From Roseovarius sp. A-2 (GTDB lineage: Bacteria; Pseudomonadota; Alphaproteobacteria; Rhodobacterales; Rhodobacteraceae): DNA of 64,000 nucleotides. The stretch is taken from NCBI RefSeq assembly GCF_002072155.1, contig NZ_BDIY01000003.1:1-64000 (forward strand), read 5' to 3'. Numbering within the stretch: position 1 is the first letter of the stretch; each line of letters starts with the position of its first letter. This document shows positions 50,230-64,000 of the stretch, in pieces. Position numbers and translations under genes: made by a program. The notes under the pieces were generated by a model. The model saw nothing but the letters and a program-made list of their open reading frames with translations, did no database searches and was not told the DNA's origin.

Positions 50230-51959
50230 GCCACGCTCAAATCCTCTTCGATCCCCTGTTGCGGGATCTCGATCCGGAACATCGCACCACCTTGGGCAAG
50301 GTTGCCCGCGCTGAACCGGCCCTGATGCGCCTTGACGATATTCGCTGAAATCGCAAGGCCCAACCCCATGCCGCGACCGCTCTCGCGCGTGGTGACGAAC
50401 GGCTCCTGCAACTCGTCGAGGCGTGCCTGCCCCAACCCATGCCCGGTGTCGCGCACCTCGACCCAGCCCGCGCCATCGTCTTGCCCCAGCGTGATATCAA
50501 CCCGCCGCTCGGTACAATCCTCCACCGCATCGACAGCATTGCGCAACACATTGGTCAGCACCTGTTCCAGCCGTAACTGATTGCCGCGCACCAGCACCGG
50601 TGACCCGGGCGCATCGAACGACTTGGTGACACCCACCTTGGCAATATTCGGCTCCACCAGCGCCAGCGCCGCCTGCACCACGGCCCCCAGATCGACCGGC
50701 CCGAACTCCTCGCGGTTGTTGCGGGCAAAGAACTTGAGCTGCCGCGTGATCCCCTCCATCCGGTCGACGATCCCGGTGATCCTCGGGATCACCTTCGCCG
50801 CCGGTTGCCCGCCGATCTCGGCCGCTGTCAGGTGGTTGCGCATCGCGGCAATAGGCTGCCCCAACTCATGCGTGACCGAGGCCGCCAACTGCCCCAACGC
50901 CGCCAGACGGCTCGCACGCTCCAACTCGTCCTGCGTGCGCTTCAACCGGCGTTCGGCGGTGCGGCGCTCTTCGATCTCGACCGCCAGCCGCTCATTGGCC
51001 TCACGCAATTGCGCCTCTTCTGCCTCGGACCGGCGCAAGGCGGCCCCGATGCGCTGCGTTCGCCGCACCTGCGACACCAGAAACCCCGCACCGGCCAGAA
51101 TCATCACCAGCCCGGTGAGCAACCAGCTGCGCGTCACCGCAGCACTGTCATCGGCAAAGTAATGCAGCACCCAGTCATGCGGTGCGACAGAGGCCGAGAG
51201 GTGAATCCGCTCCGTCCCGCCGATTACGGCGCGCGTCTCGGCCTTGGGTTGCCAGTAAAGCGGGTCAAGATCCTGCCCCGGAAACTGTCGGCTCTGCGCG
51301 ATGCGCGCGCGCTGATCGGTACTCAGCGCACTCAGGCTGCGATAGCGCCAGTCCGGGTCTGATGACAGCAATACCACACCGTCACGATTGGCCAGAAACA
51401 CCTGCTCTCCGGCCGCGCGCCAGGCCTCTTCAAGATCGGTCAGACCCAGCTTGATGGCGATCACCCCGGCCAAGCCGCCCCCGGCATCGCGCACCGCATC
51501 GGCGATGAAATAGCCGGGCAATCCCGTGGTTGCCCCGATCCCGTAGAACCGACCCTGCGCGCCGTCCCGCGCCGCGCGGAAATAGGGGCGAAAGGAATAG
51601 TCCTGCCCGACGAAGGTGCCGGGCCGTCCGGCGTTGGACGCGGCAATCGTCATCCCGTCAGGCCGCATCAGATAGATCGCATCCAGCCCCGATTGCGCCG
51701 CAAAGGCCGCCAGCCTGCGATCCAGCCGCCCGGTCGGGCCGCCCGTGGCCGTGTCGATCACATGACTGTCGCGCGCCAGCACATAGGTCAGATGGGAAAA
51801 CCGCTCCAGCTCCGACAGTACGGTGCTGTGGTACAGTGACAGCCGCCCGCGCGCCTTGGCCTCTTCCTCGGATTGGAAAAAGCTGAGCGAGAGCCAGAAC
51901 ACGCCAATCGTCACGCAGAGCGCGGTTATGGCGGCAAGAGCGGTGGTGGTCAGTCGCAT
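50226..51959 (-). CDS. dctB: DctB-like sensor histidine kinase
   Basis: A 577-residue membrane kinase. Helix one at about 8-28, a periplasmic double-PAS sensor (about 30-275; FVGQDYSFRPYFRAARDG is the DctB-type ligand motif), a second helix at 279-296, a coiled coil, then His364 in SVTHELGQPIAAMRNH, the N box NVLRNAVDAVED and the G boxes DTGHGLG and GMGLGLAIS. It senses an extracellular C4-dicarboxylate-like acid and phosphorylates the adjacent regulator. First gene of the pair. Confidence 0.9.
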   Translation of the reverse strand: MRLTTTALAAITALCVTIGVFWLSLSFFQSEEEAKARGRLSLYHSTVLSELERFSHLTYVLARDSHVIDTATGGPTGRLDRRLAAFAAQSGLDAIYLMRPDGMTIAASNAGRPGTFVGQDYSFRPYFRAARDGAQGRFYGIGATTGLPGYFIADAVRDAGGGLAGVIAIKLGLTDLEEAWRAAGEQVFLANRDGVVLLSSDPDWRYRSLSALSTDQRARIAQSRQFPGQDLDPLYWQPKAETRAVIGGTERIHLSASVAPHDWVLHYFADDSAAVTRSWLLTGLVMILAGAGFLVSQVRRTQRIGAALRRSEAEEAQLREANERLAVEIEERRTAERRLKRTQDELERASRLAALGQLAASVTHELGQPIAAMRNHLTAAEIGGQPAAKVIPRITGIVDRMEGITRQLKFFARNNREEFGPVDLGAVVQAALALVEPNIAKVGVTKSFDAPGSPVLVRGNQLRLEQVLTNVLRNAVDAVEDCTERRVDITLGQDDGAGWVEVRDTGHGLGQARLDELQEPFVTTRESGRGMGLGLAISANIVKAHQGRFSAGNLAQGGAMFRIEIPQQGIEEDLSVA

Positions 51960-52034
51960 GGGAAACAGGTATCGGTATCTTTACCGGGTCACGCAAGAGA
52001 AAGCATGGCCCGGACGCACCACGCCGGAGGAGCA

Positions 52035-52667
52035 ATGACCGACCATCTGAACCGCGCCCTGAAAAACGCCCGTGTCGTTCCGGTGATACGCCACCACGAT
52101 ACGAGCATCGCCGAAACCGCATGTCACCTGCTCGCCCATGAAGGCGCTCGCGTCCTCGAAATCACCATGAGCGTGCCCGGCGCGAACGGGCTCTTGCAGC
52201 GCCTTGGTGTCGCGCATCCCGATGTCATTCTCGGGGCGGGTACTGTTCTTGATGCAACGCAGGCGCAGGCGGCCATCGCCTCGGGCGCGCAGTTCATCGT
52301 CTCGCCCTGTTGGTGCGACGCTGTGGCAGCAGCCTGTCGCGCAGCACAGATCCCCTATCTGCCCGGCGCCATGACACCCGGCGAAGTGCTGCACCACGCA
52401 CAGGCGGGCGCGCATGTGGTCAAGATCTTTCCCGCCGATGCCGCAGGCGGACCCGGGTTTCTGAGGGCGCTTCGGGCGGTGTTCCCCGACATCGCGCTCA
52501 TGCCCACCGGCGGCATCACACCGGGTAACGCCGCTGATTACCTCGCCGCCGGGGCGCTCTGCGTCGGCATGGGCGGCAACCTGTTGCCCGCCGCCGCCCT
52601 TGAGGCGGACGACGAGGCCACGGCGCGCGATCTCATCCGCGCAGCTTTGAACGGGGCGGGCATGTGA
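52035..52667 (+). CDS. eda: 2-keto-3-deoxy-6-phosphogluconate aldolase
   Basis: A 210-residue class I aldolase splitting KDPG (or 4-hydroxy-2-oxoglutarate) to pyruvate and glyceraldehyde 3-phosphate. Lys130 in VVKIFPADAAGGP forms the Schiff base; Glu42 in VLEITM and FIVSPCWC, ALMPTGGITPGNA complete the site. GGAGGAG precedes the ATG. It is divergent from dctB with a 75-bp gap. The edd partner is not in the window, so a role with KDPGal or other keto acids cannot be excluded. Confidence 0.9.
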   Translation: MTDHLNRALKNARVVPVIRHHDTSIAETACHLLAHEGARVLEITMSVPGANGLLQRLGVAHPDVILGAGTVLDATQAQAAIASGAQFIVSPCWCDAVAAACRAAQIPYLPGAMTPGEVLHHAQAGAHVVKIFPADAAGGPGFLRALRAVFPDIALMPTGGITPGNAADYLAAGALCVGMGGNLLPAAALEADDEATARDLIRAALNGAGM

Positions 52668-53114: not shown

Positions 53115-54083
53115 TCATCCCGCAGGCCGGTCATCCTCGATATAGGCGCGCACATTCTCTTCAAAACTGCCATCCGCCTCCAGTCCCAGCGCAAGCGCCC
53201 GGTCGGCATTTATATCGAAGCGCCAGCCCCCCACGATCTGACGCACCGCCTCTTCCGGCTGCCACGTGATCAGGCGCGCGGGCTCCGACCCGGCCACGGC
53301 CGTCATCGCGTCGATCATCTGCCGGATCGACAAGGTCCGCCCCGGCATTTGCAGAATGCGATTGCCCCCCAGATCCCCGGCGGAGATTTCCGCCACCCGG
53401 ATCAGGTTCTCGACGCATTTGCGCGGGCTGAGATAATAATGCTGGAAATCCTCATCCACCGGGCAATTGGCCATCTGCCCGTTCAGCGGCTCGCGCAGGA
53501 TCGAGGACATGAAGCTCGACGCCGCGCGGTTCGGCTTGCCGGGGCGGATCGAGATCGTCGGCAGGCGCACGCCACGCCCGTCGATATAACCCTTGCGCGC
53601 ATAATCGTTGACCAGCAATTCGCCTATGGCCTTTTGCGTGCCATAAGAGCTTTGAGGATTGAGCAGCGAGACCTCGGTGATCGGGTCTGGCACCTCGCCA
53701 CCGTAAACCGCCAAAGACGAGGTGAACACCAGCAGCGGCACACTGTCCAGCTCCCGGCACCGCTCCAATATGTTGAGCGTTCCATGCAGGTTTATCTGCA
53801 TTCCCTCCTCGAACTCCTCCTCGGCATGCGAGGACACGACAGCGGCGAGGTGATAGATCACGTCCGTCTCACCGGTAACCACTTGCGCGACCGAGGCCGG
53901 ATCGGTGATGTCGCAGCGCGCGGTTTTGATTGGCACCCTGGCATCCGTGATCCCGGCAGGATCGTTCACATCCGCCAGAGTGATGCACGAGATTTGCCTG
54001 CCGTCGAGCGTACCCCGTGCGACCAGTGCGCGCGCCAGCTTCTGTCCCAGAAATCCGCCGCCGCCGATGATGGTGATGTTCAT
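53115..54083 (-). CDS. denD: NAD-dependent epimerase/dehydratase, D-erythronate dehydrogenase-like
   Basis: A 322-residue extended SDR. NAD-binding GGGGFLGQKLARAL near the start, DVIYHLAAVVSSHAEEEFEE, SSLAVYGG and the catalytic SSYGTQKAIGE (Tyr-x3-Lys) are seen. The sequence looks like DenD, which oxidises D-erythronate at C2 in the four-carbon acid-sugar pathway. The isomerase and kinase partners of that pathway (otnI, otnK) are not present, so a related sugar acid may be the substrate. It is last in the unit lysE-type gene, FAD oxidase, denD, 40 bp after the oxidase. The start at 54083 begins the Rossmann strand. Confidence 0.78.
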   Translation of the reverse strand: MNITIIGGGGFLGQKLARALVARGTLDGRQISCITLADVNDPAGITDARVPIKTARCDITDPASVAQVVTGETDVIYHLAAVVSSHAEEEFEEGMQINLHGTLNILERCRELDSVPLLVFTSSLAVYGGEVPDPITEVSLLNPQSSYGTQKAIGELLVNDYARKGYIDGRGVRLPTISIRPGKPNRAASSFMSSILREPLNGQMANCPVDEDFQHYYLSPRKCVENLIRVAEISAGDLGGNRILQMPGRTLSIRQMIDAMTAVAGSEPARLITWQPEEAVRQIVGGWRFDINADRALALGLEADGSFEENVRAYIEDDRPAG

Positions 54084-54123: not shown

Positions 54124-55533
54124 TCAAGCCTCGCTGCCCTCCTCGGGCGGCAGCAGCTTGCCGGGATTGAGAATGTCCTGCGGATCGAGCGCGGTCTTGA
54201 TCGCTCGCATGACATCGACCGCCGCGCCGTGCTCGGCGTGCATCAGGTCGCGCTTGCCGAGGCCAATGCCGTGTTCGCCCGACACCGTCCCGCCGAGCCG
54301 CAGCGCCATGTCCGCGAGGTCATGCCCGAAACCCGAGGCGCGGGCGAGATCGGCCCGGTCGGTCGGGTCGATGCTGACGCCGCAATGGAAGTTGCCGTCG
54401 CCGACATGGCCGACGATGGTCGAGACAAGCCCGAGATCACGCGCCCGGCTCTGGGCATGGGTCACCGCATCGGCCAGCCGAGAGATCGGCACGCAAACAT
54501 CGGTCACGTAGAGCTGCGTGCCAGGGCCGCCCAGTGCCTGACTGGCATAATGCGCCTTGTGCCGCATCGACCAGAGCGCGTTGCGCTCCTCGGTCCTGGT
54601 GGCCGTCTGCCACGCCTGCATGCCGAACTCTTCGGCGATGTCCGCGAAACCGCCGCTCTGCTCGGTGACGCTCGCCGGGGTGCCGGTGAATTCGAGAAAG
54701 AGATGCGGGCGCTCGGGCAGGCCGCTGTCAGAATAGAGGTTGAAGCCGCGCACCATCATCTCGTCCAGTAGCTCGATCCGGGCCATCGGCAGGCCCGATT
54801 GGATGGTTGCGATCACGCAGTTCACCGCATCCTTGACCGTCGCGAACCGGCAGGTCGCGGCCAGCACTGCCTCGGGCACGCCCTGAAGACGCAGGGTCAG
54901 TTCGGTGATGATCCCGAGCGTGCCTTCGGAGCCGATCAGCAGATGAGTGAGGTCATAGCCTGTGGAGGATTTGCGCGCCCTCGATCCAGTCCGGATGACC
55001 GTGCCATCCGCCATCACCGCCTCGAGCGCCAGCACATTCTCGCGCATCGTGCCGTGGCGCACGGCAGTGGTGCCGCTGGCGCGTGTTGCCGCCATCCCGC
55101 CGAGCGAGGCATCGGCACCGGGGTCGACTGGAAAATACAATCCAGTCGCGCGAATGTCCTCATTGAGCGCGTGCCGTGTGACGCCCGGTTGCACCACCGC
55201 ATGCAGATCCTCGGCGCTGACCGTGAGCACGCGATTCATCCGGGTCATGTCGAGACTGATCCCGCCCGAAATCGCCAGATGCTGCCCCTCGAGCGCACTT
55301 GCCGCGCCACAGGCCACGACCGGGCAGCGATGCGTCTGACAGAGCTTGACGATCTCCGAGACCTCTTCGGTGGTCTCGGGATAGGCGACCGCCTCGGGCG
55401 GGGTGGGCGGATACCATGTCTCGCAGCGGCCATGCGCGTCGCGGTCGGCCGTTGTCGTGACCAGCCGGTCCCCCAGCAGGTCGCGGAGCGCGTCAATTGC
55501 GGAGGGATGGGCGGACGGGGTATCGAGGGTCAT
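54124..55533 (-). CDS. FAD-linked 2-hydroxyacid oxidase/dehydrogenase (GlcD / D-lactate dehydrogenase type)
   Basis: A 469-residue flavoprotein of the VAO/PCMH family. The FAD-binding part has VVACGAASALEGQHL, VDPGADASLGGMAATRASGT and GSEGTLGIITELTLRL; the C-terminal cap has GHVGDGNFHCGV with metal-binding histidines and GEHGIGLGKRD. It oxidises a D-2-hydroxyacid such as D-lactate or glycolate, passing electrons to cytochrome c or quinone. It lies 15 bp after the LysE-type gene. In this block it may oxidise a lactate or glycolate fragment from the sugar acid. Confidence 0.85.
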   Translation of the reverse strand: MTLDTPSAHPSAIDALRDLLGDRLVTTTADRDAHGRCETWYPPTPPEAVAYPETTEEVSEIVKLCQTHRCPVVACGAASALEGQHLAISGGISLDMTRMNRVLTVSAEDLHAVVQPGVTRHALNEDIRATGLYFPVDPGADASLGGMAATRASGTTAVRHGTMRENVLALEAVMADGTVIRTGSRARKSSTGYDLTHLLIGSEGTLGIITELTLRLQGVPEAVLAATCRFATVKDAVNCVIATIQSGLPMARIELLDEMMVRGFNLYSDSGLPERPHLFLEFTGTPASVTEQSGGFADIAEEFGMQAWQTATRTEERNALWSMRHKAHYASQALGGPGTQLYVTDVCVPISRLADAVTHAQSRARDLGLVSTIVGHVGDGNFHCGVSIDPTDRADLARASGFGHDLADMALRLGGTVSGEHGIGLGKRDLMHAEHGAAVDVMRAIKTALDPQDILNPGKLLPPEEGSEA

Positions 55534-55548: not shown

Positions 55549-56148
55549 TCAGCCCGTTCTCAGTGCGGTAACGGACGCCAGCACCACCACCGCCAGCATC
55601 GAAGCTGCCATCGCGGCGTTGATCCGGCGATGCGCGCGTTCCGTGAGGTTTAGCCGGTGCAGCGCCACCCCTGCCCAGAGCCAGCCGAGGTGAATGGGAA
55701 TCCAGTTCAGATTCATGATGACCAGCTTGCTCGCGGTCTCGAACAGCAGGTTTCCTGGTGCGTAGGGAAAGCCCGCCATCAGCGTGGTGTTGACCGCATA
55801 GGCCTTGGGGTTGATCGCCTGCAGCAGGATCCCCGCGCCGATCCCGGGGGCGCGGCGCGCCTCGATGAACGCGATCCGCGACCCAGCCAGCGCGATCCGT
55901 GCGGCGAGATAGAGCAGGTAGAGGATCGAGGCGGCCATAAGCAGGGTGCGAATCACCGGCTCTGCCAGAAGGATTGCCGCAAGCCCCGAGATCACCGCGA
56001 GCGCGACAAGGTTGGCGCCGATGAACAGCCCGGTGACATAGGTCAGACCGGCCCGGAACCCGTAGGCCGATCCCACTCCGGCGGTGGACAAGACCCCCGG
56101 ACCCGGCGTGATGATCAGGAACAGCACGGCAAGCGCGAATGTCAGCAT
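55549..56148 (-). CDS. LysE/RhtB-family exporter
   Basis: A 199-residue membrane protein with about six helices. The start MLTFALAVLFLIITPGPGVL carries the TPGP motif of the LysE family, and LLQAINPKAYAVNTTLM the conserved NPK. The family exports amino acids and small metabolites. It is the first gene of a three-gene minus-strand unit and has a TGGTATACCA site 74 bp upstream, so it is tied to the sugar-acid regulon; release of an overflow metabolite is a guess. Confidence 0.83.
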   Translation of the reverse strand: MLTFALAVLFLIITPGPGVLSTAGVGSAYGFRAGLTYVTGLFIGANLVALAVISGLAAILLAEPVIRTLLMAASILYLLYLAARIALAGSRIAFIEARRAPGIGAGILLQAINPKAYAVNTTLMAGFPYAPGNLLFETASKLVIMNLNWIPIHLGWLWAGVALHRLNLTERAHRRINAAMAASMLAVVVLASVTALRTG

Positions 56149-56221: not shown

Positions 56222-56231
56222 TGGTATACCA
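56222..56231. promoter_or_regulatory. GntR-type operator, copy 1
   Basis: TGGTATACCA, a perfect 10-bp palindrome, 74 bp upstream of the LysE-type gene start on the minus strand. The same word occurs three more times in this block and fits the size of FadR/FCD-family operators. Confidence 0.75.
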
Positions 56232-56470
56232 TTTGACTAGTGCCGGCATGTCCCAAAGGTCAACAGCGATTTGGACCATATCGGATGACATGCTGTTGGT
56301 TGGAGGGGCCGCCGCCACCCACCGGCCGAATCGCGGCGCACCCTTGGCGACGTCGGGCGGTCGGATCGGGCGTGACGCCATCGCCTGTGCGAGCGCTGTT
56401 TCCTGATGCCACGGCGTCAGCGGCGGGCACTGCACCGTGTATTTCAAAGGGCCCATGTTTTGGCTTGCAT

Positions 56471-56484
56471 TTTGGTATACCAAA
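56471..56484. promoter_or_regulatory. GntR-type operator, copy 2
   Basis: TTTGGTATACCAAA, a perfect 14-bp palindrome around the shared 10-bp core, 66 bp upstream of the dehydratase start on the plus strand. Confidence 0.8.
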
Positions 56485-56549
56485 TCCGATGCTTGCCGCA
56501 AACGCCGCGCGACAGCACTCGGGCAGGCGGACGTCTCGAGGAGGACAGC

Positions 56550-58331
56550 ATGAGCAATACCCGCGCCAACAAGCGTTTCCGCTCGCAGGAATGGTTCGAC
56601 AATCCCAACAATCCGGGCATGACCGCGCTCTATCTGGAGCGCTATCAGAACCAGACATTCACCCGCGAGGAACTGCAGAGCGGCCGGCCCGTCATCGGCA
56701 TCGCCAATACCGGATCCGATCTCGCACCCTGCAACAAGATCCACATCTTCCTGATGGATCGGATCAAGGCGGGCATTCGCGACGCGGGCGGCATCCCGAT
56801 GGAATTTCCGATCCACCCGATCCAGGAGACCGGCAAGCGGCCCACGGCGGCGCTTGACCGTAATCTCGCCTATCTCAGCCTGGTCGAGGTTCTGCATGGC
56901 TATCCGATCGACGGCGTAGTGCTGACCACCGGCTGTGACAAGACCACCCCGGCCCAGCTCATGGGGGCGGCGACGGTGGACCTGCCCGCGATTGCACTCA
57001 ATGGCGGGCCGATGCTCGATGGCTGGTACAAGGGCAAGCGCGCGGGCTCGGGCATGGTCGTCTGGGAGGGTCGCCGCCTGCTGGCCGAGGGCAAGATCGA
57101 CTACGAAGAGTTCATGGAGCGCGCCTGCGCCTCTGCCCCGTCGCTGGGGCATTGCAACACGATGGGCACTGCCTCGACGATGAACGCCATGGCAGAGGCG
57201 CTTGGCATGACGCTCACGGGATCGTCGGCCATTCCCGCGCCCTTCCGCGAGCGCATGGAGATGGCCTTTGCCACCGGCAAGCGGATCGTCGAGATGGTGC
57301 TGGAGGATCTCAAGCCCTCCGATATCCTGACGCGCGCGGCCTTCGAGAACGCGATCAAGACCAACACCGCCATCGGCGGTTCGACCAACGCGCCGCCGCA
57401 TCTGCAGGCCATCGCGCGTCATGCGGGCGTGGACCTGCATGTGCAGGACTGGCAGACCGTCGGCTTCGAAGAGCCGCTTCTGGTCAACATGCAGCCCGCC
57501 GGAGTCTATCTCGGCGAGAGTTTCCACCGCGCGGGCGGTGTGCCTGCGGTGATGGGCGAACTGCACAAGGCCGGTCGTTTGCATGGCGGGGTGATGACCG
57601 TCACGGGCAAGACAATGGCCGAAAACCTCGTGGGTTGCGACAGCGTAGATCATGACGTGATCCGCCCCTATGACCGCCCGCTGCGCGAGAATGCAGGGTT
57701 CATCGTGCTCTCGGGCAATCTGTTCGACTCCGCGCTGATGAAGACCTCCGTGATCTCGCCCGACTTCCGCAAGCGGTTTCTCTCCACCCCCGGTGAGGAG
57801 GGCATCTTTGAAGGGCGGGCCGTGGTGTTCGAGGGGCCCGAAGATTACCACGACCGGATCAATGACGAGAGCCTTGGAATTGATGAAGAAACCATCCTGT
57901 TCATCCGCAATGTCGGCTGTGTCGGCTACCCCGGCGCGGCCGAGGTGGTGAATATGCAGCCGCCCGATGCGGTGCTGCGTGCCGGTGTGCATCACCTGCC
58001 CACGGTCGGCGACGGGCGGCAATCGGGCACGTCGGAAAGCCCCTCGATCCTCAACGCCTCGCCCGAATCGGTGGTCGGCGGCGGCCTGGCCTATCTTCAG
58101 ACCGGCGACCGGGTGCGGCTCGACCTCAACACCGCCTCGATGGAGGCGCTGGTGGAGCAGGAGGAATGGGACCGCCGCAAGGCTGACTGGACCCCGCCCG
58201 AAATCGAGAACCAGACACCGTGGCAGGAGATCTATCGCCGCCATGTCGGGCAACTGGCCGAGGGTGGTTGTCTTGAACTGGCGACGGCCTATCAACGTGT
58301 CGCCCGCAACCTGCCGCGCGACAATCACTGA
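56550..58331 (+). CDS. IlvD/Edd-family sugar-acid dehydratase (pentonate/arabinonate type)
   Basis: A 593-residue iron-sulfur dehydratase making 2-keto-3-deoxy acids from aldonates. Cys61 (DLAPCNK), Cys129 ([16 protein letters not shown]) and Cys202 ([12 protein letters not shown]) fit the three [2Fe-2S] ligands of pentonate dehydratases. [16 protein letters not shown] and [20 protein letters not shown] near the end are typical of the L-arabinonate/D-xylonate branch rather than IlvD proper. GAGGAGGA precedes the ATG at 56550. It is first in a four-gene plus-strand unit and carries an operator 66 bp upstream. Which aldonate is used cannot be read from sequence. Confidence 0.88.
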
Positions 58332-58340
58332 GGGGGAGCC

Positions 58341-59078
58341 ATGGCGCAGAACATTATCATCACCGGTGCGGGCAGTGGCGTGGGACGCGCCACCGCCCGG
58401 GTCTTTCTCGATGCGGGGTGGCAGGTCGGCCTTGTCGGACGCCGCGTCGAGGCGCTCGAAGAGACGGCGGCGGCCCACGGTGCGGCGCTTGTCCTGCCCT
58501 GCGACGTGACCGACGCCGATGCGACCGAGGCGATGGTGGCGCGTGCGGCCAGAGAATGGGGCCGTGTGGACGCGCTCTTCAATAATGCCGGTGTCGCGAT
58601 GAAGGGCGCACCGATAGACGAGCTGGATATCGACGAGATCCGCACCCTGATCGACGTGAATGTCATGGGGGCGTTCATCGCCGCGCGCGCCGCCTTTGCG
58701 CAGATGCGGCGGCAGGATCCGCAGGGCGGACGGATCATCAACAATGGCTCGGTCTCGGCCCATGTGCCCCGCTGGGGCTCTGCCCCCTATACCGCCTCGA
58801 AACACGCGATCACCGGGCTGACACGCACGCTCTCGCTCGACGGGCGGGCGTTCGACATCGCCTGCGGTCAGATCGATATCGGCAACGCCCTGACCGAGAT
58901 GGCGCAGGCCATGACCCAGGGCGTGCCGCAGGCGGACGGATCGCTGGCGGTGGAGCCGGTGATGGATGTGACCCATGTGGCGCAATCCGTGCTGCACATG
59001 GCCTCCTTGCCGCTTGAGGCCAATGTGCAATTCATGACCGTGATGGCCAGCGCCATGCCCTATATCGGGCGCGGCTGA
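58341..59078 (+). CDS. short-chain dehydrogenase/reductase
   Basis: A 245-residue classical SDR: TGAGSGVGRATARVF (NAD binding), FNNAGVAMKG, Ser in NGSVSAHVPRWGSAPY and the catalytic Tyr-x3-Lys in PYTASKHAITG. It lies 9 bp after the dehydratase. A likely role is oxidation of the 2-keto-3-deoxy acid to a diketo acid for the FAH-family hydrolase, as in known nonphosphorylated rhamnonate or fuconate routes; this is inference. Confidence 0.87.
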   Translation: MAQNIIITGAGSGVGRATARVFLDAGWQVGLVGRRVEALEETAAAHGAALVLPCDVTDADATEAMVARAAREWGRVDALFNNAGVAMKGAPIDELDIDEIRTLIDVNVMGAFIAARAAFAQMRRQDPQGGRIINNGSVSAHVPRWGSAPYTASKHAITGLTRTLSLDGRAFDIACGQIDIGNALTEMAQAMTQGVPQADGSLAVEPVMDVTHVAQSVLHMASLPLEANVQFMTVMASAMPYIGRG

Positions 59079-59101
59079 ACATTTTTCAGGGAGATCTACA
59101 C

Positions 59102-60040
59102 ATGACCGAAACCCTCGCAATCGGAACCTTCAGCGAGGTGGACGAGACCGCCCTTGAGGACGATCTCGGCGCCCGGATCGTGGACAGCCTAGACGTCGCC
59201 GCGGCGCTGAACGAAGAGACTCGCGGCGCGGTTCGCGCCATCGCCTTCAAGGGACATACGCGCTTTGACGGGGCGTTGATGGATCTCTTTCCGGCGCTTG
59301 GTCTGATCGCAAATTACGGCGTTGGCTATGACGCGATCAACGTGGCCGATGCGCAGGCCCGCGGCATCGCGGTGACCAACACGCCCGATGTGCTCAATGA
59401 CGATGTCGCCGATCTCGCGGTCGGCATGATGATCGCGCAATGCCGCCGGATGGTGCAGGGCGATCATCATGCCCGCTCCGGGGCCTGGGCCAACGGGCAG
59501 GCATTTCCGCTCAATCGCAAGATGTCGGGCGGGCGCGTGGGCATTCTCGGGCTGGGACGGATCGGACGCGAGATCGCAGACCGTCTGGCCGCGTTCAAGA
59601 TGGAGCTGCACTACTGGTCGCGCAGCGAAAAGGACACGCCGGGCTGGACCTATCACGACGATCCCGCGTCCCTCGCGCGGGCGGTGGATTTCCTGGTGGT
59701 GGCCCTAGTCGGTGGTCCGGAGACCGAGAGCATGGTGTCGGCCGAGGTGCTGGATGCGCTCGGGCAGGAGGGGGTGCTGGTAAACATCTCGCGCGGCTCG
59801 ACGGTGGATGAGGGCGCGTTGCTCGACCGGCTGGAGGATGGCCGCCTGGCCGGTGCCGCGCTCGACGTGTTCTGCTCCGAGCCGGAGCTCGACCCGCGCT
59901 TTGCCGCACTCGACAACGTGGTCCTGCAACCGCATCAGGGCTCGGGCACGCATGTCACGCGCGCAGCCATGGGAAAATTGCAACGCGACAACATCGCGGC
60001 CTTTATGGCGGGCAAGCCGCTTTTGACGCAGGTCGCGTGA
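59102..60040 (+). CDS. D-2-hydroxyacid dehydrogenase (glyoxylate/hydroxypyruvate reductase type)
   Basis: A 312-residue NAD(P)-dependent enzyme. IANYGVGYDAINVADAQARG, the Rossmann glycines GRVGILGLGRIGREIAD, the substrate arginine in NISRGSTVDEGALL, the Glu in CSEPELDPRF region and His in VVLQPHQGSGTH are all present. AGGGAGAT lies before the ATG. It is the third gene of the unit and ends 23 bp before the next start. It would reduce a 2-keto acid such as glyoxylate or hydroxypyruvate. Confidence 0.87.
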   Translation: MTETLAIGTFSEVDETALEDDLGARIVDSLDVAAALNEETRGAVRAIAFKGHTRFDGALMDLFPALGLIANYGVGYDAINVADAQARGIAVTNTPDVLNDDVADLAVGMMIAQCRRMVQGDHHARSGAWANGQAFPLNRKMSGGRVGILGLGRIGREIADRLAAFKMELHYWSRSEKDTPGWTYHDDPASLARAVDFLVVALVGGPETESMVSAEVLDALGQEGVLVNISRGSTVDEGALLDRLEDGRLAGAALDVFCSEPELDPRFAALDNVVLQPHQGSGTHVTRAAMGKLQRDNIAAFMAGKPLLTQVA

Positions 60041-60063
60041 ACCGGAACAAGGAGGACAGGAAT

Positions 60064-60987
60064 GTGACGGGTCAACCAAAAATCGGCTTTGTCGGCGTGG
60101 GCTATATGGGCCATGGCATGGCCAAGAATATTCTCAAGGGCGGCTATGACCTGATGATCAAGGGCAACCGCAACCGCGCGCCCGTCGAAAGCCTGACGGC
60201 TATGGGCGCGCGGGAGGCCGCAAGCCTCTCGGAGATGGCGGCGGCCTGTGACATCGTGTTTCTGTGCCTGTCGAACTCGCCACAGGTGGAGGCGGTGGTC
60301 AGGGGCGAGGACGGGTTGATCGCCAATGGCAAGCCGGGACTAATCGTGGTCGATACCACCACCGCAAACCCGGTCTCGACAGAGGCGCTCGCCACCGAGT
60401 TGGAGGCACGCGACATGCATATGGTCGATGCCCCGCTCGGCCGCACACCCAAGGAGGCCGAGGCCGGCACGCTCGATGCCATGGTCGGGGCCGCGCCGGA
60501 GGTGTTTGAGAGCGTCAGGCCGGTGATCGACTGCTGGGCCGGATCGGTCACGCATCTCGGGCCGGTGGGCGCGGGGCACAAGATGAAACTGGTGATGAAT
60601 TTCCTCGGCACCGGCTATGCCGCGCTCTATGCCGAGGCGTTCACCATGGGGGCCAAGGTCGGGCTCGCGCCACAGCTTGTTCGCGAGGTGATCGGTGGCA
60701 GCCGCATGGGCTGCGGCTTTTTCGAGACCTACACACAATGGGTCTGCGACCGAAACCGCGAGGCGCATGTCTTCAGCCTCGATAATGCCGCCAAGGATAT
60801 CGGCTATGTCTGTCTGATGGCACAGGCGGCGGGCATGGCCAATCCCATGTCTGCCACGATCCGCAACGCCTTTGCCAGTGCCGTCGCACAGGGCAAGGGG
60901 GCCGATTACATGCCGATGCTGGCCGATCACGTGGCCGCGCTGAATGGCCTCGATCTGGGTGCGGAGGTCGAGAAGGGCCGTAGCTGA
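60064..60987 (+). CDS. 3-hydroxyisobutyrate dehydrogenase-family enzyme (tartronate semialdehyde reductase / threonate dehydrogenase type)
   Basis: A 307-residue beta-hydroxyacid dehydrogenase. KIGFVGVGYMGHGMAKNILK binds the cofactor, VDAPLGRTPKEAEAGTL is the substrate loop and GAGHKMKLVMNF carries the catalytic Lys. GarR, GlxR and LtnD belong here. The start is taken as GTG at 60064, which lies 7 bp after GGAGGA; the ATG two bases earlier is followed at once by a stop codon. Fourth and last gene of the plus-strand unit. Confidence 0.85.
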   Translation: MTGQPKIGFVGVGYMGHGMAKNILKGGYDLMIKGNRNRAPVESLTAMGAREAASLSEMAAACDIVFLCLSNSPQVEAVVRGEDGLIANGKPGLIVVDTTTANPVSTEALATELEARDMHMVDAPLGRTPKEAEAGTLDAMVGAAPEVFESVRPVIDCWAGSVTHLGPVGAGHKMKLVMNFLGTGYAALYAEAFTMGAKVGLAPQLVREVIGGSRMGCGFFETYTQWVCDRNREAHVFSLDNAAKDIGYVCLMAQAAGMANPMSATIRNAFASAVAQGKGADYMPMLADHVAALNGLDLGAEVEKGRS

Positions 60988-60997
60988 CGCGAGGACA

Positions 60998-61028
60998 CGG
61001 GCCCGACGATTCGTTGTCGCCAGGCCCG
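60998..61028. terminator. candidate bidirectional terminator hairpin
   Basis: CGGGCC (60998-61003) pairs with GGCCCG (61023-61028), with a weaker inner stem CGAC/GTCG. It sits in the 46-bp gap between two convergent genes. No clear U-tract on either side. Confidence 0.45.
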
Positions 61029-61033
61029 GTGCC

Positions 61034-61879
61034 TTAGTTGGCCGCGATCACCTCCTGGCGCTGATTGCCAAGGCCCTCAATGGTCAGCTCCATCACGTCG
61101 CCCGGCTTCAGAAAGCGTTGCGGCGACATGCCGAGGCCAACACCCGAGGGCGTTCCGGTGGCGATAATGTCCCCCGCGCGCAGTAGCATGAAGTGGCTGA
61201 GATAGGACACGATCTCGGCCACGCCGAAAATCATGTCCGAGGTGTTGGAGGATTGCACCGTCTCGCCGTTGAGCGCCAGCGACAGGTCGAGCGCCTGCGG
61301 GTCGGGCACCTCGTCGGCGGTGACCAGCCAGGGGCCGATTGGCCCGAAACCGGGGGCGGATTTGCCCTTGACCCATTGCCCGCCGCGTTCGATCTGGAAG
61401 GCGCGCTCGGAGACGTCGTTGATCACGCAATATCCCGCGACGTGATCGAGCGCATCCTCCTCTGGGACGTAGAGCGTGTCACGTCCGATGATGACCCCAA
61501 GCTCGACCTCCCAGTCGGCCTTGCTCGACCCGCGCGGCAGAGGCACCGGGTCGTTGGGACCGGACAGGCAGCTTGTGACCTTCGAAAAGACGACCGGCTC
61601 CTCTGGCGCCTTGGCCCCCGTCTCGGCGGCGTGTTGGGCGTAGTTCAGCCCGATGGCGATGAAATTCGGGACCCAACTCAGGCACGGGCCAATGCGACCC
61701 GGTTCCTCGATCACCGGAAGGCTCGCGGTATTGAGCGCCGCAATCCGCGCGAGCGCGTCCTGGGATACCGCGTCGCCGGCGAAATCGGGCACCTCGCCCG
61801 ACAGGTCGCGCAGTTGTCCGTCGGCATCGAGAATGGCGGGCCGTTCCGCGCCATGCGGGCCAACTCTAAGAAGTTTCAT
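61034..61879 (-). CDS. fumarylacetoacetate hydrolase-family enzyme (2,4-diketo-3-deoxy acid hydrolase candidate)
   Basis: A 281-residue enzyme of the FAH fold. The metal site and core are GLNYAQHAAETG, PVVFSKVTSCLSGPNDPVPL, DWEVELGVIIGRD and NDVSERAFQIERGGQW, with TGTPSGVGLGMSPQRFLKPGD at the end. Family members hydrolyse C-C bonds of diketo acids, including 2,4-diketo-3-deoxy-L-rhamnonate to pyruvate and lactate; others are ureidoglycolate lyases. Its start overlaps the end of the upstream gntR gene by 14 bp, so the two form one unit. Confidence 0.85.
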   Translation of the reverse strand: MKLLRVGPHGAERPAILDADGQLRDLSGEVPDFAGDAVSQDALARIAALNTASLPVIEEPGRIGPCLSWVPNFIAIGLNYAQHAAETGAKAPEEPVVFSKVTSCLSGPNDPVPLPRGSSKADWEVELGVIIGRDTLYVPEEDALDHVAGYCVINDVSERAFQIERGGQWVKGKSAPGFGPIGPWLVTADEVPDPQALDLSLALNGETVQSSNTSDMIFGVAEIVSYLSHFMLLRAGDIIATGTPSGVGLGMSPQRFLKPGDVMELTIEGLGNQRQEVIAAN

Positions 61880-62570
61880 GGGTCTCCTCTTCTCCGGGCT
61901 TTTCCGGTGTCTTAGGTTGATCCCGCATTTGCGAGATCATCAGGTTCTCGAGATCCGTGAGCAGGTTCCCGAGATGGGCGTCGAACGCAGAGCAAAGCGC
62001 GGCCTTGTCGCGCGCCAGGATCGCGTCGAGGATGCCGTCATGCTGGGTCAACACGCGCTCTCGGTTCTCGCGCATGCGCGAGGTCAGGTAACGGGCATGC
62101 CACAGCCGCGCGAGATAGGCCTTGTGCGTGCGCGCAAGCGCGGCGTTGCGCGAGGCTTCGGCGATGGTGGTGTGAAAGGCCATGTCCATTTCAAAAGAGT
62201 CGATCCGCTCGGCTGTGTAGAAGGTCTCTTCCATGAGGCGTGCCGCCTCGCGAATGTGGTCGAGATCGGCCTCGGTCGCGTGGTCGCAGGCCAGTTCGCC
62301 GGAGAGCTTTTCGAGCGCCACCAGCACGACCGCCTGATCGCACAGCTCTTTCGCCGTGGGTCGGCTCACGACCGGGCTGCGCGACGGGCTGAGCACGACC
62401 AGCCCCTCCTTGGCCAGAATGCGAATCGCTTCGCGCATCGGCGTGCGGCTGACGCCCATGGCCGCCGCGTGGTCGCGTTCTTTGATCGGCGCACCGGGCA
62501 CAAGCTCGCCGCGCAGGATGCTGCGGCGCAACTCGTTGGCGATGCGGTTTGCGAGCGTTGGTCCTGACAT
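61866..62570 (-). CDS. GntR-family regulator (FadR/FCD subfamily) of the sugar-acid block
   Basis: A 234-residue regulator. The winged helix reads LANRIANELRRSILRGELVP with VSRTPMREAIRILAKEGLV; the C-terminal all-helical FCD domain has FHTTIAEASRN and a metal-binding-type His pattern (H in TQHDGILDAI, DAHLGNL). The palindrome TGGTATACCA at 62648 lies 78 bp upstream of its start and recurs at three other promoters of the block, so this protein is the likely repressor. The inducer is probably the imported acid or a pathway intermediate. Confidence 0.88.
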   Translation of the reverse strand: MSGPTLANRIANELRRSILRGELVPGAPIKERDHAAAMGVSRTPMREAIRILAKEGLVVLSPSRSPVVSRPTAKELCDQAVVLVALEKLSGELACDHATEADLDHIREAARLMEETFYTAERIDSFEMDMAFHTTIAEASRNAALARTHKAYLARLWHARYLTSRMRENRERVLTQHDGILDAILARDKAALCSAFDAHLGNLLTDLENLMISQMRDQPKTPEKPGEEETHETS

Positions 62571-62645
62571 CGCAAAGAAATTCCTCGACCTGTGCGTTCC
62601 CGGGCTCTGCTAACCCGTGCCGGGCAGCGCGTCCATAATTCTCGA

Positions 62646-62659
62646 TTTGGTATACCAAA
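62646..62659. promoter_or_regulatory. GntR-type operator, copy 3
   Basis: TTTGGTATACCAAA, identical over 14 bp to the copy at 56471. It lies between the gntR start (62570) and copy 4, 76 bp upstream of gntR. Confidence 0.8.
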
Positions 62660-62702
62660 ACAAGTTGATTGTGAAATTCACTTTGTTTACCGTCCATTCC
62701 GG

Positions 62703-62716
62703 AATGGTATACCATT
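62703..62716. promoter_or_regulatory. GntR-type operator, copy 4
   Basis: AATGGTATACCATT, a perfect 14-bp palindrome around the shared core, 65 bp upstream of the TRAP binding-protein start and 57 bp from copy 3. Confidence 0.8.
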
Positions 62717-62780
62717 TTGGTGCAGGGCGATCCTGCAACGGAGGAAGCGGCACAGAAGCCGTGACAGGGAGGAAAGACCA

Positions 62781-63794
62781 ATGACCTTGAAGCCACTACT
62801 CACATCTACCGCTGCCGCCGCGCTACTGGCCACAGGTGCCCTCGGGCAGGAGGTGACCCTGCGGATGCAGACCCATTACGCCACGGAGCATCCCACCGGG
62901 CAGGCGCTCGCGCGCTTCATCGACGATGTCGAGACCATGTCCGACGGCGAAATCGCGATCGAGATGTTCTATTCCTCGGCCGTCGTCGCCACGACCGAAA
63001 CCTTTGACGCGGCGATCAACGGTATTCTCGACTGCGACGCTACCGGCGGGGCCTATCAGACCGGCAAGAACCCGGCCTTCCAGTTCGTCGGTGACTTCAT
63101 GGGCGGCTATGACACCGCCTGGCAGCAATATTCATGGCTCTATTACGGCGGCGGTTACGAGGCGGCGCAGAACCTCTATAACGAGCACAACATGCAGTTG
63201 GTCGGCTGGTCCATTTACGGTCAGGAATCGCTGTCGTCCTCCGAACCTATCGCTGGCCCAGAGGACCTCAAGGGCTGGAAGTTCCGTTCGCCCCCTGGCA
63301 TGGAGACCGAGATTTTCGAGCAACTCGGGGCCTCGCCCATCGTGATGGATTTCACCGAGATTTTCACCGCGCTCGAGACCGGGATCATCGACGGGGCGGA
63401 TGCCTCGGGGCTGGCCAACAATGTCGGGCTCGGGCTTTATGATATCGTCGATCACGCCACCTATCCCGGCTTTCACTCGATGCCTTCGGACCATTTGGCC
63501 TGCAACAAGGACGTCTGGGAGGGGCTGACGGAATCGCAGCGCCGGATCATCGAGACCGCCTGGCAGAAGATGGGCTTTCACATCGCCCTCACCAATGAGC
63601 GCGCCAATGCCGAGGCTGCCGCCAAGCTGGAGGAGCAGGGCGTAACCCTGCACACCTGGTCGAATGAAGACCGCAAGGTGTTCCGCGACGCGGCGCAAGT
63701 TTCTTGGGAACGCTGGGGCGACAAGAATGAACAGGCGCGCGCCATTCTCGAGAGCCACAAGGCCTATCTGCGGCAGCTTGGGCTTCTGAACTAA
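62781..63794 (+). CDS. TRAP transporter substrate-binding protein (DctP family)
   Basis: A 337-residue periplasmic protein. Signal peptide MTLKPLLTSTAAAALLATGA, cleaved near ALG/Q. LRMQTHYATEHPTGQALARF begins the mature domain; the carboxylate-binding arginine is in LKGWKFRSPPG and the helix after it contains MDFTEIFTALETGIIDGADA. This profile resembles mandelate/keto-acid or sugar-acid binding TRAP proteins more than succinate-type DctP. GGGAGGAAAG precedes the ATG. With operator copy 4 upstream it belongs to the sugar-acid regulon and probably imports its substrate. Confidence 0.88.
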   Translation: MTLKPLLTSTAAAALLATGALGQEVTLRMQTHYATEHPTGQALARFIDDVETMSDGEIAIEMFYSSAVVATTETFDAAINGILDCDATGGAYQTGKNPAFQFVGDFMGGYDTAWQQYSWLYYGGGYEAAQNLYNEHNMQLVGWSIYGQESLSSSEPIAGPEDLKGWKFRSPPGMETEIFEQLGASPIVMDFTEIFTALETGIIDGADASGLANNVGLGLYDIVDHATYPGFHSMPSDHLACNKDVWEGLTESQRRIIETAWQKMGFHIALTNERANAEAAAKLEEQGVTLHTWSNEDRKVFRDAAQVSWERWGDKNEQARAILESHKAYLRQLGLLN

Positions 63795-63889: not shown

Positions 63890-64000
63890 ATGAGCAAGAG
63901 TGTCTGGCTTGGCCGCGCGCGCCGACCCGTGAAACTGTCAATGATCGGGTTTTGCGGTGTCGCGCTGCTCCTCTATGTCTGGCTCGTGGCGGCGCGGCTC
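63890..64000 (+). CDS. TRAP transporter small permease (DctQ family), 5' part only
   Basis: 37 codons are visible before the right edge: MSKSVWLGRARRPVKLSMIG, then a hydrophobic stretch (CGVALLLYVWLV). A basic N-terminus followed by a helix right after a TRAP binding-protein gene fits DctQ. GGGAGTGGGAG lies upstream but some 15 bp from the ATG, so the exact start is uncertain. The large permease presumably follows outside the window. Confidence 0.6.
   Translation, partial: MSKSVWLGRARRPVKLSMIGFCGVALLLYVWLVAARL

Follow-up and report, generated by a model that had tools for sequence, protein, structure and literature searches.

The 64,000-nucleotide stretch of Roseovarius sp. A-2 DNA analysed here (contig NZ_BDIY01000003.1, positions 1 to 64,000; hereafter the window) has towards its end a locus that, by its gene content, looks like an uptake and catabolic system for a sugar acid. 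A 10-bp palindrome, TGGTATACCA, recurs upstream of four transcription units of this locus, and these copies are in all likelihood the operators of a GntR/FCD repressor, encoded by gntR at 61866-62570 on the minus strand, whose hold on the four units would be relieved by the sugar acid or its product. A single regulator would thus very probably control both the uptake and the breakdown of the sugar acid.

The four exact copies lie at 56222-56231, 56473-56482, 62648-62657 and 62705-62714, precisely where an earlier reading of these letters without database searches (the sequence-only reading) had reported them, and there is no fifth site in the window even when one mismatch is allowed. The word was absent from all 100 dinucleotide shuffles of the window, and by calculation one expects 0.061 copies with equal base frequencies, in agreement with the earlier figure of about 0.06 per 64 kb, or 0.024 at the window's own composition. 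Other palindromic 10-mers found at least three times in the window are GCGCGCGCGC (six copies), CGCGCGCGCG and CGGTGCACCG (three each). The earlier range of 65-78 bp for the distance to the start codons is correct, because the measured distances are 73 bp for lysE, 67 bp for the dehydratase gene, 77 bp for gntR and 66 bp for dctP. As had also been noted, the palindrome is perfect over 14 bp in three copies: TTTGGTATACCAAA at 56471-56484, the putative operator of the dehydratase unit, and at 62646-62659, the putative gntR-proximal operator, and AATGGTATACCATT at 62703-62716, the putative dctP-proximal operator; no strand is assigned to any of the sites. The exception is the putative operator of the lysE-glcD-denD unit at 56222-56231, where the palindrome ends at 10 bp. 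What had been called four divergent units are indeed four units, but they flank two divergent intergenic regions, two units to each. The core, TGGT-AT-ACCA, fits the TKGT/ACMA palindrome that the consulted portion of Suvorova et al. 2015 (PMC4494728) gives for the FadR/FCD subfamily, with 2 nucleotides between GT and AC.

Co-occurrence of the palindrome with the regulator gene

A scan of the whole genome (4.58 Mb in 126 contigs), which the sequence-only reading had proposed as a check, recovered seven copies of TGGTATACCA and one of the reversed word used as control. Each of the seven is followed by a predicted start codon 30-77 bp downstream, the starts for this count having been picked by hand from the predictions. 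With up to three mismatches the word gave 52 matches and the control 48, and weak matches are therefore uninformative. Two of the copies outside the window belong to an oxalate cluster discussed below; the remaining one is a 14-bp TTTGGTATACCAAA on another contig, 62 bp upstream of a galactarate/altronate-dehydratase-like gene of the GD_AH/UxaA type (uxaA-like; L006 5951-7519 on G000:C4, G000 being this genome, strand not stated). Hence the four units named earlier stand, but the regulon is larger, with this fifth, distant 14-bp site. In 12 sampled relatives the uxaA-like gene is 3.8-10.3 kb away from gntR; it is the next mapped gene after dctM in 11 of these, and stands beside the TRAP (tripartite ATP-independent periplasmic) transporter genes in six of the eight named relatives listed below; of 30 uxaA-like loci scanned, only those of this genome and of G045 have TGGTATACCA within 1.5 kb. 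In this genome the orphan copy therefore points to a gene which in relatives belongs to the gntR cluster, and assigning this distant gene to the pathway narrows the search for the substrate.

We compared 149 genomes of the family Rhodobacteraceae, 28 of which have a match to the regulator; 21, counting the source genome, have a close ortholog (at least 46% identity). The exact word is present in the fetched gntR locus of 18 of these 21 genomes, as against none of eight weaker matches. The mean number of copies per genome is 5.2 with a close ortholog (n=21), 1.4 with a weak match (n=7) and 0.85 in the rest (n=121), the 21 genomes differing from the 128 others with p 1.5e-13, while the control word shows no difference (means of 1.6, 1.1 and 1.8 in the same groups). 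In named relatives from Roseovarius, Wenxinia, Salipiger, Alloyangia and Palleronia, with regulators of 55-83% identity, the word lies upstream of gntR in eight of eight, and these genomes carry 3-12 copies of it versus 0-4 of the control word. An additional copy lies past the gene for a fumarylacetoacetate-hydrolase (FAH)-type enzyme in Roseovarius azorensis (L023 10890), ahead of further genes.

The dehydratase gene offers an internal control that is often absent from such predictions, as the same gene has the site only where the regulator gene exists. In regulator-carrying genomes the word is found 32-179 bp upstream of the start in 17 of 18 dehydratase orthologs of at least 81% identity, and at none of three more distant homologs. 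In genomes without a close regulator it is missing within 400 bp of all 18 better homologs (65-83%) and within 1.5 kb of all 35 further ones; this part covers 53 of 54 dehydratase matches, one being without a locus, and includes L243 with only 102 upstream bases. Restricting the comparison to dehydratases of at least 79% identity gives 17 of 18 with the regulator versus 0 of 11 without it (Fisher p 3.5e-7); the direction of this dependence is clear, although kinship among the genomes makes the p-value optimistic. These results also bear on the notion that the word is a structural or replication palindrome, or a chance cluster, with no relation to GntR. Its perfect symmetry is what such an explanation would call for, but the location of all seven genomic copies just ahead of predicted start codons and the dependence of the dehydratase site on the regulator gene speak against it; together with the shuffles they rule it out for practical purposes, and we regard it as vanishingly improbable.

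Arrangement of the probable operators and likely mode of control

The gntR-dctP intergenic region spans 210 bp (62571-62780), with its two sites 57 bp apart and each nearer to one of the two operons (gntR at 77 bp, dctP at 66 bp), an arrangement that matches the operon-specific double sites of divergons in the part of PMC4494728 consulted, where each site lies close to its own operon. Among 23 gntR-dctP regions, 17 have two exact copies, spaced 55-57 bp apart in 16 and 23 bp apart in one. The flanks are conserved by position in 13-16 of these 17, with TTTGGTATACCAAA on the gntR side and GATGGTATACCATC on the dctP side (AATGGTATACCATT in the window). This set leaves out L024, L129, L131 and L133, where dctP was not found beside gntR, and its gene starts are tblastn ends, some of them adjusted manually; gene distances in it can thus be wrong by a few bases (by one in the window), with the spacings unaffected. 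Closely paired copies, 23-25 bp apart, sit upstream of the dehydratase gene or between gntR and dctP in some relatives (L116 19567/19592, L131 14085/14109, L123 8752/8775).

Between the two operators an alignment of 15 of the 17 two-site regions reveals a conserved element, TTGATTG...TACCGT, at 62665-62693 on the plus strand of the window, possibly the core of the dctP promoter. In 22 of the 23 divergons, TTGATTG is present in 15, and the form TTGA-N18..20-TANNGT in 11 as against 0.14 expected from mononucleotide shuffles. If TTGATTG...TANNGT represents promoter elements lying between the two operators, this would explain the fixed spacing of 55-57 bp; the promoter positions are taken solely from the alignment. 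At the dehydratase gene, 11 of 16 regions (out of the 17 that bear a site) have TTGCAT immediately before the operator. Both arrangements would suit repression by occlusion. Alternatively, the regulator could be an activator or a dual regulator, acting on dctP from the gntR-proximal site upstream of its promoter, with the other site acting downstream. The gntR-proximal operator does lie just upstream of the conserved TTGATTG, which may be the -35 region of dctP; however, the dctP-proximal operator would then sit at or just after the transcription start, as expected of a repressor site, and the position of the dehydratase operator right after TTGCAT likewise suggests repression. We therefore consider activation unlikely.

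Most likely, the system is that of a classical FadR-type repressor whose operators are operon-specific and overlap the promoters. A GntR dimer would bind each palindrome, overlapping or adjoining the promoter of the unit, and thereby repress four units, namely lysE-glcD-denD, the dehydratase unit, gntR with the gene for the FAH-type enzyme, and the TRAP transporter unit. Between gntR and dctP, each end of the 57-bp stretch that holds the predicted promoter elements would be occupied by one dimer. Binding of the sugar acid, or of its product, to the FCD domain would then release the repressor.

Several observations weigh against this reading or against its simplest form. Six of the 23 gntR-dctP regions have a single exact copy, and scanning the two intergenic regions of the window for consensus promoters gave no sigma-70-like hit. 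The exact word is missing within 1.5 kb on either side in three of the 21 close-ortholog loci (L035, L049 and L050), L035 having just a one-mismatch word about 0.9 kb away, and a one-mismatch word is present at one weak-match locus (L056). Two regulator-free genomes, G136 with seven copies and G063 with five, are still rich in the word; a search for the sugar-acid GntR at E up to 1e-40 gave no ortholog in either, and both have an oxalate-type regulator. The one dehydratase ortholog lacking the word belongs to G137, and one of the 11 genomes counted as regulator-free, G014, has a weak regulator match (41% identity). The p-values overstate independence because the compared genomes are related. 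The same core is found at a second FCD regulator of this genome, so that shared control is conceivable. Finally, a site lies within 400 bp upstream of only four of 16 lysE orthologs, that of the window included.

Given the last of these counts, and a palindrome of only 10 bp, lysE cannot be taken as a plain member of the regulon. In relatives, however, the same class of site occupies the divergon between an idnO-like and an idnD-like gene in all ten loci where these are neighbours, and nine of the ten have lysE immediately after idnD; it is for this reason that we keep the lysE site in the regulon. These two gene names are tentative, as one pair was scanned (L259) and scored under the equivalog cut-offs. 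Neither an idnO-like nor an idnD-like gene was found in the window, and the comparison suggests an origin of the lysE copy in the idnO/idnD operator, with loss or removal of these two genes. The lysE copy is thus the weakest member of the predicted regulon, backed mainly by operon context in relatives. Three stretches of relatives (L262, L265 and L268) also have the word immediately ahead of the 2-hydroxyacid dehydrogenase ortholog.

A second FCD regulator with the same core

The two further genomic copies (L005 7121-7130 and 10442-10451, that is, G000:C1:519120 and C1:522441; strand not stated) are exact cores in or beside an oxalate cluster, in which genes for oxalyl-CoA decarboxylase and formyl-CoA transferase lie downstream of a regulator. 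The former stands 30 bp ahead of a succinate-CoA-ligase-like gene next to another such pair, and the latter 38 bp upstream of the cluster's own FCD regulator (C1:522489). Among the 25 FCD loci of the genome, fetched with about 1.5 kb on each side (four end early at contig ends), the word occurs in two, those of the sugar-acid GntR and of the oxalate regulator. An exact copy stands ahead of the regulator gene in 13 of the 19 orthologous oxalate loci, this genome included; in 11 of the 13 it reads TATGGTATACCA(C/G). The core is therefore common to two FCD regulators whose proteins are 26% identical, and the idea that the 10-mer alone identifies its regulator has to be rejected. The earlier proposal that all units are linked to one GntR/FCD regulator accordingly draws its support from the comparative evidence; the 10-mer by itself is not specific to that regulator, and the link is weakest for lysE.

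With a common core, either the flanks or the protein levels must keep the two regulators apart, or their action overlaps. The sites of the locus could accordingly be bound by the oxalate regulator as well as by GntR, or by the former alone. Both proteins would then recognise the same 10 bp, and they do have in common an S-R-T-P stretch in the DNA-binding domain, besides the core found at the oxalate regulator in its orthologous loci. Yet the two proteins are distant in sequence overall, and the flanks differ: those at the oxalate regulator are asymmetric, whereas those of the sugar-acid sites are TTT..AAA, GAT..ATC or AAAT..ATTT. Moreover, the word count and the dehydratase sites track the sugar-acid GntR, and of the 21 genomes with its close ortholog this genome alone has a match to the oxalate regulator (E up to 1e-60). 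Hence shared control appears quite improbable, and we retain repression by the sugar-acid GntR as the preferred explanation.

The sugar-acid flanks fall into classes that hold across genera, with TTT..AAA at gntR and mostly at the dehydratase gene, GAT..ATC at dctP and AAAT..ATTT at idnO/idnD. It is possible, though we hold it as a tentative idea only, that an invariant core with promoter-specific flanks sets a fixed order of induction (transporter versus enzymes versus regulator) under the one repressor, and that the flanks also exclude the oxalate regulator. Two regulators with a common 10-bp core in one genome would in any case be a test case for flanks separating paralogous repressors.

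Related systems and genes of the locus

The GntR protein (234 residues) is above the cut-off for both its N-terminal GntR winged helix (PF00392, 55.2 bits, cut-off 27) and its C-terminal FCD domain (PF07729, 77.8 bits, cut-off 24.3), and in none of its 13 matching NCBIfam families. Across 26 orthologs D129, H133, H177 and H199 are invariant with at most one exception; we take them to be the Asp-His-His-His tetrad that contacts ligand and metal in FCD domains. The enterobacterial UxuR and ExuR are likewise GntR/FCD proteins of sugar-acid catabolism, and the UxuR operator resembles TTGGTATACCAA. Identity with either was rejected, as the protein of the window scores far under both NCBIfam equivalog cut-offs (31.9 of 442 and 36.6 of 396 bits).

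The switch is of a familiar type, and this regulon fits a well-known kind. PMC4494728, in the part consulted, describes palindromes of the FadR subfamily with 2 or 3 nucleotides between GT and AC, the spacing of 2 being listed for the GntR, HpxS, HypR, MdcY, PrpR and UxuR groups; the GT-N2-AC spacing and the operon-specific double sites of the window fit these systems closely, whereas that part mentions neither the present orthologous group nor its set of genes nor a spacing of 55-57 bp. The portion consulted of PMC5507952 reports GntR regulons with TRAP or tripartite tricarboxylate (TTT) transporters, predicted in mat bacteria, among them that of GguR and that of an L-fuconate/L-galactonate locus. 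As here, regulator, TRAP or related transporter and sugar-acid enzymes share one locus and were brought together by genome comparison, but the regulators and mostly the organisms are different, and the UxuR regulon given there for Rhodobacteraceae bins has an ATP-binding cassette (ABC) transporter in contrast to the TRAP system of the window. A literature search for the literal TGGTATACCA and TTGGTATACCAA gave only unrelated papers among the matches listed. No description of this regulon turned up in the literature covered, with most subscription papers outside its scope, and we do not claim that it is unpublished. What began as a sequence observation is now a regulon prediction with good support, one that holds across many genera of the family and concerns a regulator with no curated-function match.

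Of the enzymes scanned, only a D-erythronate-dehydrogenase-like protein (DenD; 53115-54083, minus strand) exceeds an equivalog cut-off (NCBIfam NF043036, 414.5 bits against 325). Beside it is encoded a GlcD-like FAD-linked oxidase (54124-55533, minus strand; PF02913, PF01565), presumably forming one unit with the LysE-type exporter (55549-56148, minus strand; PF01810). A KDPG/KHG aldolase family protein is encoded near the cluster, at 51873-52667, with no TGGTATACCA copy nearby. On the plus strand lie the genes for the IlvD/Edd-family dehydratase (56550-58331; PF00920, PF24877), which is above subfamily cut-offs only (NCBIfam NF009560) and has 5oyn as its closest solved chain, a short-chain dehydrogenase (58341-59078; PF00106), a D-2-hydroxyacid dehydrogenase (59102-60040; PF02826, PF00389) and a reductase of the 3-hydroxyisobutyrate dehydrogenase family (60064-60987; PF03446, PF14833). 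The FAH-type enzyme (61034-61879, minus strand; PF01557) overlaps gntR, with which it presumably forms one unit; its top NCBIfam match, 2,4-didehydro-3-deoxy-L-rhamnonate hydrolase, falls under the cut-off (386 of 500). This gene content fits the sugar acid of the sequence-only reading, while neither the enzyme matches nor those of DctP, which has many solved relatives, identify which acid it is. The transporter genes are dctP, for the binding protein (62781-63794, plus strand; PF03480), and dctQ, for the small membrane subunit (63890-64000, plus strand), the latter running past the window end; DctP, DctQ and DctM are adjacent and all above cut-off (PF03480, PF04290 and PF06808), and dctM is followed in the genome by genes for a dehydrogenase, a short-chain dehydrogenase/reductase (SDR) and an EamA permease.

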